Assembly (NCBI GenBank): GCA_913055895.1
Contig: CAJXLE010000007.1
Location: 1-36,269 of the forward strand
Source of the DNA: an uncultured Bacteroidota bacterium
GTDB lineage: Bacteria; Bacteroidota; Bacteroidia; Bacteroidales; UBA12077
DNA: 36,269 nt
Direction of reading: 5' to 3'
Shown here: piece after piece, positions 21,994 to 27,329 of the stretch
How the letters are laid out: each line of letters starts with the position of its first letter
Position numbering within the stretch: the first letter of the stretch is position 1
Program-made: the position numbers and the translations under genes
Notes under the pieces: model-generated
The model's input: the letters and a program-made list of their open reading frames with translations, nothing else
What the model was told of the DNA's origin: nothing
Database searches by the model: none

Positions 21994-22830
21994 GTGAGAA
22001 ACATGATACTTATTGCAACAATCATCCTGTTAACCCTGGTTGTTCTAACACCCCTGGCTGGCAGGGCCATGCTTGATAAAAGGACTGATGGAGAAGTTCG
22101 CGAACTTTTTTATCAGTCACAATCCCTGGAAGGCAAAATATTTACCCATGAGCAGCTCCGGGGTTTGCCCAACCCGGTAGAGGAATATTTCAAACATGTC
22201 CTTGATGAGGGACAGCCCTACATCAGCTATTTAAGACTCCGGCATGATGGCTGGTTCAAAACAGGGCCCGACAAAAAAGCCATGAAGATTCGGGGCGAGC
22301 AATATTTTACCGCATCGCGCCCCGGTTTTATATGGATAGGAAAAACCAGGCTCTTTACGGCCCGCGACATCTACCTAAAGGGTAAAGGAAGGCTTGTGGT
22401 CTCATTGCTTTCCTTATTCAAAGTGGCCGACCAACAGGGTCCCGAAGTCGACCAGGCTGAATTGCTTCGATGGCTTGGCGAGAGTGTGTGGTTTCCCACC
22501 AACCTGTTGCCCAGTGAAAACCTTCAATGGTCGGCCATAGACTCCTCTCACGCCAGGCTTACCTACACCCATAATGGCTTATCCGTCTATTATGTGGTTA
22601 CCTTCAACGAAAAAAATGAGATTACTCAGATGGCGACGCAGAGACACATGGAGGACCGAGGCTTACAGCCCTGGGTGGGTAAAGTGGGTGAATACCGGGA
22701 GGTCGATGGCGTTCGTGTTCCCGGTGTGATTGAAGCTTCCTGGGACCTTGAAGAGGGGCGCTACACCTATGGGCGCTTCAAAGTGCAGCAGTTTGAATAC
22801 AACATCCCCGAAAAGTTTAACGCGGACTAA
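21994..22830 (+). CDS. DUF6544-like protein
   Basis: One N-terminal TM; LPNPVEEYFKHVLDEGQPYISYLRLRHDGWFKTGPDKKAMKIRGEQYFTASRPGFIW; RYTYGRFKVQQFEYN. Recalled DUF family. Confidence 0.65.
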   Translation: MRNMILIATIILLTLVVLTPLAGRAMLDKRTDGEVRELFYQSQSLEGKIFTHEQLRGLPNPVEEYFKHVLDEGQPYISYLRLRHDGWFKTGPDKKAMKIRGEQYFTASRPGFIWIGKTRLFTARDIYLKGKGRLVVSLLSLFKVADQQGPEVDQAELLRWLGESVWFPTNLLPSENLQWSAIDSSHARLTYTHNGLSVYYVVTFNEKNEITQMATQRHMEDRGLQPWVGKVGEYREVDGVRVPGVIEASWDLEEGRYTYGRFKVQQFEYNIPEKFNAD

Positions 22831-23860
22831 AAACCCGGATGCGTGTCGATTTGCCTTTAAGGGACAGTTCTTTCACAAAACGGTAATCTTCCGGCTCTTG
22901 AAGCCTGCCGATCGTGTCTTCGCTGATGAGTATCTGCCCGGGCTCAGTGGCTTCCTCAATGCGATAGGCGGTATTGACCACATCTCCAACTACGGTCCAG
23001 TCCTTGCGGTCCTCCGAACCAATGTTTCCCTGTATCAGGTTGCCCGTATTGATGCCTATGCGCAGGTTGATGGTGGGAAGCTTGCGAAATTGCAGTCCAC
23101 GGTTCAAGGTCTTTAACCCCTCGGGCAACATGTCCAGTGAAGCTTTTACTGCATCGGCCGGCTCTTCGAAGATGGCCATCACCCCGTCGCCCAGGAACTT
23201 GTCGATGTCACCCCTGTTCTTTTGAATGACCCTGGATGTTTTGGTGAAATAAACATTGAGCATGTCCACCACCTTCTCGGGCGGCAACTTTTCCGAGAGG
23301 GCGGTGAAACCCACAATGTCCATGAAAAGTATGGTCAGGTTCCTGTTGTAGGCTTTGATGCCATAATCCCTGCTGTTCACTGCCCTGACAACCTCCTTGT
23401 AGGTGGTCTCCGAGACAAACTGCCGGACAACCTTCTTGTAACGGTTTTCTATTTTTTGGACTTTTTCTTCGATGGATATGTCTCGGAAAACCTCAAACAA
23501 GCCGGTAATCTTACCCGACTCATCTGTCATGGGGTGGATGTAAAGGGATACCGGGAAGGAGTAACCCAGCCGGTGGGTGTAATAGACTTTGATTTCATTG
23601 GCGATACCGCTGGAGAGAACCGATTCGAGGTGCTGATTGTCGGGATACAACGGTTTACCCTTATCATCGCTTATCTCAGGGAAGCTTTTGTCAGGAAGGT
23701 TTTGGGTTATCTCTTCCGCCGAAAAACCGGTTATGTTTTCTGCCCCTTTATTCCAGAAAAGCAGGTTCATTCGCCTGTCCAGAATGCGAATGCCATCGTA
23801 AATGGCATCCAGCCATTTCTGTGTTTCGGGCGAAACCGTATGATCTTTATTATCTGACAT
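22817..23860 (-). CDS. PAS domain plus class III adenylate/guanylate cyclase
   Basis: PAS: DAIYDGIRILDRRMNLLFWNKGAENITGFSAEEI. Cyclase: LFMDIVGFTALSEKLPPEKVVDMLN, IDKFLGDGVMAIFEEP, RIGINTGNLIQGNIGSEDRKDWTVVGDVVNTAYRIE. Confidence 0.93.
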   Translation of the reverse strand: MSDNKDHTVSPETQKWLDAIYDGIRILDRRMNLLFWNKGAENITGFSAEEITQNLPDKSFPEISDDKGKPLYPDNQHLESVLSSGIANEIKVYYTHRLGYSFPVSLYIHPMTDESGKITGLFEVFRDISIEEKVQKIENRYKKVVRQFVSETTYKEVVRAVNSRDYGIKAYNRNLTILFMDIVGFTALSEKLPPEKVVDMLNVYFTKTSRVIQKNRGDIDKFLGDGVMAIFEEPADAVKASLDMLPEGLKTLNRGLQFRKLPTINLRIGINTGNLIQGNIGSEDRKDWTVVGDVVNTAYRIEEATEPGQILISEDTIGRLQEPEDYRFVKELSLKGKSTRIRVFSPR

Positions 23861-24603: not shown

Positions 24604-25029
24604 TCAGGTGTATTTTCTGAAGCTGTCCAGCAGGTAGACAACCTGTTGGGTACTGGCCCTGATGGTCTCTACAGGTTTTTCACGTTGAAAGAAATCAGAA
24701 AAACCGGGAATATTTGATGACTGCTCACTGCTGATTCTCTGAAAGCCCATCGACCAGTCGGGAAAGGCTCTTTTATCAATGGGTTCTTCCAGGAGCTTGA
24801 CCACATTGGTGTGCCTGGAATCTTTTTCTATCGTGTTGAAAAGATGCTGAATGGTCTTTCTCATGCCCTCTATCACCTGGATGAAACTCCCGTCGTTGTA
24901 TAGCAGCAAACCGGTGACATCCCGTGCGTGGTTTTTGGCACGTATCTCCTGCAGGAGATCGTGGAGCTCTTTTTCCGAAAGATTGCGCTTGGCAAAACTC
25001 ACATAAACGATGTGTATAAGTTCATACAT
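24604..25029 (-). CDS. BLUF-domain blue-light sensor
   Basis: MYELIHIVYVSFAKRNLSEKELHDLLQEIRAKNHARDVTGLLLYNDGSFIQVIEGMRKTIQHLFNTIEKDSRHTNV...RAFPDWSMGF. Retains the BLUF Tyr, Asn, Gln and W-x-M positions. Confidence 0.93.
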   Translation of the reverse strand: MYELIHIVYVSFAKRNLSEKELHDLLQEIRAKNHARDVTGLLLYNDGSFIQVIEGMRKTIQHLFNTIEKDSRHTNVVKLLEEPIDKRAFPDWSMGFQRISSEQSSNIPGFSDFFQREKPVETIRASTQQVVYLLDSFRKYT

Positions 25030-25255: not shown

Positions 25256-26146
25256 ATGTTTAGCCTGGAAGGAATCATCCCACCATTGCCCACCTCTTTC
25301 GACCACCATGAAGAACTGCTGCCAGGCAAGATGCAGCAAAACATAAAGCGCCTGGCCGATTACGGTCTGGCCGGCTTTCTTGTTCTGGGCTCCAATGGCG
25401 AACAGGTAAATCTTACTGAAAAGGAGCGGCGCATGGTGTGTGAGAAATCCAGGGAAGCCATCCCTGACGGCAAAGTTATGCTGGCAGGCACCGGCTGCCA
25501 GTCGACCCGTGCCACCATTCGTGCTAGCCGAGATGCTGCACGGGCAGGGGCTGATGGTGTCCTTGTTTTGAACCCGTCTTATTATAGAGGTTTGATGAGC
25601 CGGGAGGCCCTGGTGGCCCATTACCGTAAGGTAGCCGATGCATCTGAAGTGCCGGTTGTTGTATACAACATGCCTGCCAACTCAGGTCTTGACATGGATG
25701 CACAGACCATAACCGAGATAGCCGTCCATGACAACATTGTGGGTTTAAAAGATTCAGCAGGCAACCTGGTGAAAATGGGAACCATCATACAACAGGCACC
25801 TCATGGTTTTCAGGTGATGGCAGGTTCGGCAGGCTTCCTTCTCCCCGCACTCTCCATTGGGGCTACCGGGGGTATACTCGCCCTGGCCAATATAGCCCCG
25901 GCCGCTTGTCTGGCTGTCAGGCAACGTTTTCTGGAGGGCAGGATAGAGGAGGCCAGGAGAATTCAGCTGGAGATGATTCCGTTGAATACGGCTGTCACCC
26001 GACAATGGGGCGTTCCTGCCCTGAAGGAAGCCATGGATTACATGGGTCTCTATGGTGGACCCTCGCGAAGCCCCCTCATGGCTGTTTCCAGTGAGACACG
26101 CGAGTGTCTCCATCATATGTTGAACGAGAGAAATCTGCAATTATAA
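25256..26146 (+). CDS. DHDPS/NAL-family aldolase, most like 4-hydroxy-2-oxoglutarate aldolase (HOGA1 type)
   Basis: GSNGE (not GTTGE), VMLAGTGCQSTRAT, PSYYRGLMSREALVAHYRKVADASEVPVVVYNMPANSGLDM, NIVGLKDSAGN (Schiff-base Lys), FQVMAGSAGFLLPALSIGATGGILALANI, NTAVTRQWGVPALKEAMDYMGLYGGPSRSPL. Confidence 0.85.
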   Translation: MFSLEGIIPPLPTSFDHHEELLPGKMQQNIKRLADYGLAGFLVLGSNGEQVNLTEKERRMVCEKSREAIPDGKVMLAGTGCQSTRATIRASRDAARAGADGVLVLNPSYYRGLMSREALVAHYRKVADASEVPVVVYNMPANSGLDMDAQTITEIAVHDNIVGLKDSAGNLVKMGTIIQQAPHGFQVMAGSAGFLLPALSIGATGGILALANIAPAACLAVRQRFLEGRIEEARRIQLEMIPLNTAVTRQWGVPALKEAMDYMGLYGGPSRSPLMAVSSETRECLHHMLNERNLQL

Positions 26147-26159
26147 AATCATAACCGTC

Positions 26160-27329
26160 ATGAAGTCACGAAAACTCCTGATGATCCCCGGCCCTATAGA
26201 ATTTGAACCTGAGGTGATGCAATCTCTTGCCGAACCCACCACCAGCCATATAGCTCCTGATTTTGTGGAGTCGTTTGGTCACGCCCTCGAGATGATGCGT
26301 GAGGTGTGGTTGGCCCCTTCCGCCCAGCCTTTTGTAGTGGCCGGATCCGGTACCCTGGCCATGGACATGGCAGCTTCCAACCTGGTGGAGCCTGGCGACC
26401 GGGTTCTGGTCATCTCTACCGGCTATTTTGGGGAGCGTTATGCCGACCTGCTCAGCCGTTATACCCGGCATGTGGATGTGCTGCGCCCGGAGCGTGGGCA
26501 GGCTGCCAATAGTGACCAAATAGAGGGAAAACTGCAGTCGGCCGATTATAAACTTATGACCTTCACCCATGTGGACACCTCCACGGGTGTGATGAACGAT
26601 CCGAAGGCCATCGCCGAGCTGGGCAGGCGTTATGGCGTGCTGACCGTGCTGGACGGGGTTTGTTCCCTTGCCGGTGAACCCATGCGCCAGGAGGAGTGGG
26701 ACATCGATGTGGCCTTCACAGCCTCCCAGAAAGCCATTGGTGTGCCGCCGGGCCTTGCTTTATTGATGGCCTCCCCGCGTGCCATGGAGGCATGGAGAAA
26801 CCGCACATCCCCGGTTCTTAACTATTATGCCGACTGGACCAACTGGTTGCCCATCATGGAAGCCTATGCCAATCGCAGACCGGCCTATTTTGGTACCCCT
26901 GCCGTCAACCTGGTGAAAGCCCTGGAGACAAGTCTGGAGAAGATTCTGGACGAAGGTGTGGACAAGCGTTTCCTGCGTCACCGGAGAATAGGCAAGGCTT
27001 TCCGTTCTGCCATGAAAGCTGCAGGACTGGAGATGATACCATCCGACGAGGCGGCAGCGGCCAACACCATGTCGGCCGTCTATTACCCTGATGGCATTGA
27101 TGATCAGCGATTCCGGCAGACGGCCAATGCTGAGGGCGTCATCCTGGCCGGCGGTCTGCTGAGTGACATCAAAAAAAGATATTTCAGGGTAGGGCATATG
27201 GGATCTACAGGTGCAGGTGATTTGCTGGCTACAGTAGGAGCTGTGGAATCAGCCTTGCGTAAGACAGGATACTCCATAGAACCCGGTTGTTGCCTCAGGG
27301 CTGCCCAGGAAGTGTTAGGAGCCCAGTAG
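26160..27329 (+). CDS. Class V aminotransferase, alanine-glyoxylate / serine-glyoxylate type
   Basis: LLMIPGPIEFEPEVMQSLAEPTTSH, GSGTLAMDMAASNL, HVDTSTGVMNDPKAIAELG, VLDGVCSLAGEP, TASQKAIGVPPGLALL (PLP Lys), YFRVGHMGSTGAGDLL. Starts 13 bp after the aldolase stop. Confidence 0.9.
   Translation: MKSRKLLMIPGPIEFEPEVMQSLAEPTTSHIAPDFVESFGHALEMMREVWLAPSAQPFVVAGSGTLAMDMAASNLVEPGDRVLVISTGYFGERYADLLSRYTRHVDVLRPERGQAANSDQIEGKLQSADYKLMTFTHVDTSTGVMNDPKAIAELGRRYGVLTVLDGVCSLAGEPMRQEEWDIDVAFTASQKAIGVPPGLALLMASPRAMEAWRNRTSPVLNYYADWTNWLPIMEAYANRRPAYFGTPAVNLVKALETSLEKILDEGVDKRFLRHRRIGKAFRSAMKAAGLEMIPSDEAAAANTMSAVYYPDGIDDQRFRQTANAEGVILAGGLLSDIKKRYFRVGHMGSTGAGDLLATVGAVESALRKTGYSIEPGCCLRAAQEVLGAQ

Follow-up and report, generated by a model that had tools for sequence, protein, structure and literature searches.

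In this work, we asked whether two adjacent genes of an uncultured Bacteroidota bacterium could form a bacterial version of the animal route from hydroxyproline to glyoxylate and glycine. Hydroxyproline is catabolized by a glyoxylate route in mammals and by an alpha-ketoglutarate route in bacteria (PMC5144071), and the animal pathway comprises PRODH2, P5CDH, AspAT, HOGA1 and AGT (PMC8779045). The window (the entire 36,269-nt stretch that was analysed) is part of contig C7 of genome G000, a metagenome-assembled genome (MAG) of 3.3 Mb in 285 contigs that is 93.8% complete. A first-pass annotation had described two same-strand genes 13 bp apart, an arrangement confirmed here from the sequence (Table 1), and all the motifs it quoted are present in the translations. 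The aldolase ORF is a full-length member of PF00701 (195.6 bits) and the aminotransferase ORF a full-length member of PF00266 (75.4 bits). Promoter and terminator scans returned nothing useful, and no terminator-like site was called in the gap; the two genes are probably cotranscribed as one operon.

Table 1. Features of the gene pair in the window
Feature	Position	Strand	Remarks
HOGA1-like aldolase gene (predicted 4-hydroxy-2-oxoglutarate aldolase, PF00701)	25256..26146	+	296 aa, ATG start
Intergenic gap, 13 bp	26147..26159	+	Stop of aldolase ORF to next ATG; putative cotranscription
Alanine:glyoxylate aminotransferase-like gene (class V, AGX1/archaeal branch)	26160..27329	+	389 aa, ATG start

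Judging from sequence, homology and gene context, we put at roughly 70% the probability that the pair is the operonic end module of an animal-type hydroxyproline pathway, in which 4-hydroxy-2-oxoglutarate (HOG), most likely derived from hydroxyproline, would be converted to pyruvate and glyoxylate, and glyoxylate to glycine. According to this model, a HOGA1-type class I aldolase would form a Schiff base with HOG through K165 and cleave it to pyruvate and glyoxylate. A PLP-dependent aminotransferase would then move an amino group, probably from alanine, onto glyoxylate to yield glycine, so that the net reaction would be HOG + alanine to glycine + 2 pyruvate. It is plausible that the putative pair keeps glyoxylate from accumulating in free form. 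HOG itself would most likely come from the hydroxyproline of collagen-type peptides, which would pass, as it does in animals, through PRODH, P5CDH and a transaminase of the generic aspartate aminotransferase type; this upstream portion is modelled on the animal pathway and on operons of related Bacteroidota.

Identity of the aldolase and its partner

When the window aldolase was searched against all solved structures, the top match was human HOGA1 (3s5n/3s5o; 266.9 bits, 44% identity over 283 aa), followed by a functionally uncharacterized Thermus protein (144 bits) and then by DapAs. The reverse search with a segment of human HOGA1 gave 641 bits for HOGA1 vs. 141 bits for DapA structures. In HOGA1, K196 and Y168 act in catalysis, S77 in proton relay, and N78 and S198 in substrate binding, while N173 occupies the position of Arg138 in DapA (PMC3188589). 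Equivalents of S77, N78, Y140, Y168, N173, K196 and S198 are all found in the window aldolase, where K165 is the counterpart of K196. Five of these positions (S77/N78/Y168/K196/S198) are invariant in 28 bacterial HOGA rows of the alignment; the 19 DapA-type rows read T/T/Y/K/A there and carry R at position 173. Among bacterial HOGAs, only the Bacteroidales clade of the window has N173 as in the human enzyme, the others having F, and this clade also has Y140 in common with the human enzyme. Since the Thermus protein 2pcq has the same GSNGE and KDS motifs, and hence part of the HOGA residue pattern, though it falls outside the HOGA clade, the substrate cannot be assigned from these residues alone.

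Phylogeny pointed the same way in two trees, each with human HOGA1 as the only animal sequence. A quick tree (50 rows) split bacterial HOGAs and human HOGA1 from DapAs with an SH-aLRT of 96, and a careful tree (34 rows) separated a group of 20 HOGA-type proteins, among them that of the window and human HOGA1, from DapAs and an LhpC-like deaminase by a branch supported at 98/97. The earlier proposal that the aldolase lies nearer to HOGA1 than to DapA is therefore borne out by structure scores, active-site residues and this branch, and the placement in a DapA or sugar-acid clade that was looked for did not come out. In the 34-row tree, human HOGA1 groups with the Bacteroidales HOGA clade (97/85), although a bacteria-only HOGA clade, tested against the one animal sequence, was not rejected by the AU test (p 0.149). 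The window aldolase reached none of the NCBIfam equivalog cut-offs. DapA itself was rejected as a candidate: the TIGR00674 score was 165 bits vs. a cut-off of 206, the active site has SN and the N173 counterpart instead of TT and Arg138, and a separate DapA gene lies on another contig of the genome (G000:C16). The window protein is most probably a HOGA1-type aldolase that would cleave HOG to glyoxylate and pyruvate.

For the window aminotransferase, the top solved matches were Sulfolobus AGXT (3zrp; 252 bits, 36% identity) and yeast AGX1 (2bkw; 244 bits, 40% identity), while human AGXT scored about 131 bits (28% identity). Catalytic equivalents of D183/Q208/K209/T263/R360 are present, and the Schiff-base Lys and the carboxylate-binding Arg are conserved. 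The first-pass annotation had called this protein an AGT-type partner; its membership of the AGT-like class V enzymes stood on both residues and placement, but the branch is not that of animal AGXT, as the tree put the protein in one clade with AGX1 and 3zrp. The amino donor of the window protein may be alanine, serine or aspartate. The best NCBIfam match was BhcA, the aspartate:glyoxylate aminotransferase of the beta-hydroxyaspartate cycle, yet with 227 bits it fell far below the NF045640 cut-off of 650, which excludes a BhcA identity. The protein is probably a glyoxylate-to-glycine transaminase with alanine as the likely donor.

Recurrence of the pair and hydroxyproline operons in relatives

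Of all lines of evidence, the comparison among genomes speaks most strongly for the proposed module. The distribution of HOGA is patchy. Strong matches occurred in 3 of 59 relatives, not counting the window genome; with it included, 3 out of 395 genomes from the class had a match at E<=1e-60, and for the phylum the figure was 24 out of 396. When neighbourhoods were inspected in 33 HOGA-bearing Bacteroidota genomes, an AGT gene lay downstream of HOGA in 21: the window genome, a congener, four other Bacteroidales (L033-L036) and 15 further Bacteroidota. Conservation of the pair across the phylum, which the first-pass annotation had named as a check, is thereby supported, and adjacency is not peculiar to the window genome. 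The two proteins of the congener are 65% and 75% identical to those of the window, the named relatives with the pair are Bacteroidales MAGs, and the 15 further pairs have a more distant AGT. Two Bacteroidales groups have only the pair in common and differ in flanking genes. Recurrence on this scale indicates that the genes are not chance neighbours. At least two of the HOGA genomes without an AGT neighbour have a contig end just past HOGA. A pattern scan of genome contigs yielded only five loci because the patterns had been built from a single sequence.

In the tree, the AGT partners of HOGA from other Bacteroidota group with Anabaena and animal AGXT. Since the branches separate the two AGT types, the HOGA-AGT pairing arose at least twice independently. 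Genome G056 has yet another arrangement, in which a GhrA-like glyoxylate reductase gene (212 bits, under the equivalog cut-off of 403) lies about 20 bp upstream of HOGA in place of AGT (L040:7229-9085). Animals likewise possess a glyoxylate reductase, GRHPR (PMC8779045). All three HOGA arrangements, i.e., the two AGT branches and the GhrA-like one, have glyoxylate as their connecting metabolite.

Outside Bacteroidia, HOGA sits in operons with the gene order [HypD activase-HypD]-XaaPro peptidase-(racemase)-(POT)-PRODH-HOGA-AGT-P5CDH. In four non-Bacteroidia families (f52, f62, f66, and f70), PRODH adjoins HOGA in 18 loci, and nearby genes include Xaa-Pro peptidase (13 loci), type-1 P5CDH (12), HypD (6 within the stretches read), and a racemase-type gene and an oligopeptide symporter (5 each). 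PRODH, P5CDH, HOGA and AGT are clustered, for example, in L069, L070, L072, L073, L077, L078, L079 and L082. Neighbour identities were confirmed by profile match on one representative of each gene type. Scores exceeded the cut-off for P5CDH (TIGR01236, 804 bits vs. 614; ALDH4-class), HypD (NF043068, 1327 vs. 1100), PRODH (PF01619, 100 bits) and POT (261 vs. 130), and lay under it for the Xaa-Pro peptidase (209 vs. 465). For the racemase-type protein, the best models were trans-3-hydroxyproline dehydratase (403 vs. 540) and 4-Hyp epimerase (299 vs. 376), both under cut-off. Outside the order, each of the 19 HOGA-positive genomes tested gave a P5CDH-type match, over the type-1 cut-off in 15 of them, and such matches were also present in HOGA-positive Bacteroidales (G019, G056, and L033-L036).

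A Peptidase_S37 protein recurs beside hydroxyproline genes in several Bacteroidota (L072:11149-12450, L152:1705-3018) and is perhaps a secreted proline-peptide peptidase.

Source of the substrate and alternative readings

The hydroxyproline role first suggested for the pair thus has the operon context of relatives in its favour, but no linkage in the window genome, where PRODH, a proline or hydroxyproline dehydrogenase (PF01619, 265 bits), is on contig C130 and the pair stands alone on C7. No TIGR01236 match to P5C dehydrogenase was found in the window genome, which at 93.8% completeness does not prove absence, nor was the enzyme found in the HOGA-positive congener G003 (~94% complete); two HOGA-negative congeners do have it. 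The aldehyde dehydrogenases of the window genome and G003 are of the L-piperidine-6-carboxylate type (over cut-off) and lactaldehyde-dehydrogenase-like. The window assembly yielded neither HypD nor a hydroxyproline racemase. Incompleteness of a MAG could explain a single P5CDH absence, but with the gene missing from two genomes, real loss is a serious possibility. For the window genome, therefore, the end of the pathway is well supported and its beginning is not, the route upstream of HOG being hypothetical.

These gaps give some weight to a different reading, in which the pair makes and consumes glyoxylate but has been decoupled from hydroxyproline in this genus, with HOG or 4-hydroxyglutamate arriving from outside or by another route and the module serving mainly in glycine supply or glyoxylate removal. 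The closest characterized AGT, yeast AGX1, is indeed a glycine-forming enzyme. We regard such decoupling as unlikely, since genes may have been missed in both MAGs, G003 does encode HypD with its activase, an Xaa-Pro peptidase and a racemase-type gene beside peptidase genes, and P5CDH occurs in the other HOGA-positive Bacteroidales listed above. The co-occurrence of HypD and HOGA within the family is itself weak evidence, because HypD is also present in 21 of 44 HOGA-negative relatives of the family. In one HOGA-negative congener, a proline-racemase-family gene is broken by in-frame stops (G001:C122, L127/L130), and it is possible that this is a decaying hydroxyproline gene.

It is far less probable that the aldolase acts on a 2-keto-3-deoxy sugar acid, or is some other pyruvate aldolase, with the aminotransferase a coincidental or differently linked neighbour. 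The DHDPS superfamily does include sugar-acid aldolases (KDG aldolase, YagE, and NanA), and a distant Citrobacter relative (32% identity) sits among genes that look sugar-acid-related, as named from reading their translations. However, that protein falls outside the HOGA clade, gene neighbours in relatives are proline and hydroxyproline genes rather than sugar genes, and all sugar-acid models scored far under their cut-offs (KdgD, 94 vs. 374; archaeal KDG aldolase, 90 vs. 390; NanA, 102 vs. 382). Among solved structures, YagE scored 106 bits and 3qfe 118, against 267 bits for HOGA1. The Citrobacter phylum, sampled with 399 genomes, gave 10 weak matches, DapA-like where the reading frame was recovered, with the exception of L148 (G1146), a DHDPS-family protein that has 34% identity to human HOGA1 and is possibly a HOGA relative outside Bacteroidota.

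Hardly credible is an identity as LhpC-type (pyrroline-4-hydroxy-2-carboxylate) deaminase: LhpC too is a DHDPS-family enzyme tied to hydroxyproline, but G056 carries both an LhpC-like gene, which at 22% identity to the window aldolase and at a separate locus argues that HOGA is not this deaminase, and a HOGA gene of 57% identity, the two types part in the careful tree, and HOGA is partnered by PRODH/P5CDH/AGT rather than HypE/D-Hyp dehydrogenase/KGSA dehydrogenase. The LhpC-like gene of G056 lies apart from HOGA in a cluster (G056:C85:33000-44000, L151) with genes for a 4-Hyp epimerase (557 bits, above cut-off) and for D-amino-acid dehydrogenase-like and aldehyde-dehydrogenase-like proteins, and this is an ordinary bacterial hydroxyproline locus of the alpha-ketoglutarate type.

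Relation to known pathways

The likeness of the window aldolase to human mitochondrial HOGA1 comprises overall identity, every reported catalytic and substrate residue and a common clade; the difference is that it is bacterial and stands in a putative operon with an AGT. Operons of other Bacteroidota match the animal pathway in grouping PRODH, type-1 P5CDH, HOGA and an AGT of the AGXT branch, and they differ from it in being bacterial, operonic and accompanied by the anaerobic HypD, while the window genome has no detected P5CDH. The bacterial Lhp/Hyp pathway (PMC5144071) starts from the same nutrient and likewise employs a DHDPS-family enzyme, but has another enzyme set and end product, and in G056 it coexists with HOGA.

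The full hydroxyproline/proline operons of relatives suggest that the animal-type glyoxylate route, as yet described for mammals, also operates in some bacteria. On balance, we favour, with some reserve, the broader proposal that Bacteroidota possess an operonic counterpart of the mitochondrial hydroxyproline-glyoxylate-glycine pathway, that glyoxylate disposal was recruited to it on at least three separate occasions (twice as an AGT branch and once as a GhrA-type reductase), and that the Bacteroidales HOGA clade is the one nearest to the animal HOGA1 lineage. The reactions themselves have been described in animals; what appears to be new is their bacterial, operonic form and the recruitment, more than once, of partners that consume glyoxylate. 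No description of a bacterial HOGA-AGT operon was found in the open-access literature, to which the search was confined, and with subscription journals and preprints outside its scope, priority is uncertain. If true, a bacterial glyoxylate route would change the annotation of collagen-degrading communities, in which enzymes of the HOGA and AGT types are now likely labelled as DapA-like proteins and generic aminotransferases. It would also make simple bacterial relatives available for HOGA1 and AGT, which are defective in primary hyperoxaluria type 3 and type 1, respectively, and bacterial HOGAs raise the question of the origin of animal HOGA1.

Another feature of the window, upstream of the pair, is a BLUF blue-light sensor gene (24604-25029) near a gene with PAS and nucleotide-cyclase domains (22817-23860). 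The same arrangement is found at the congener locus (L038), which suggests light-controlled cyclic-nucleotide signalling.
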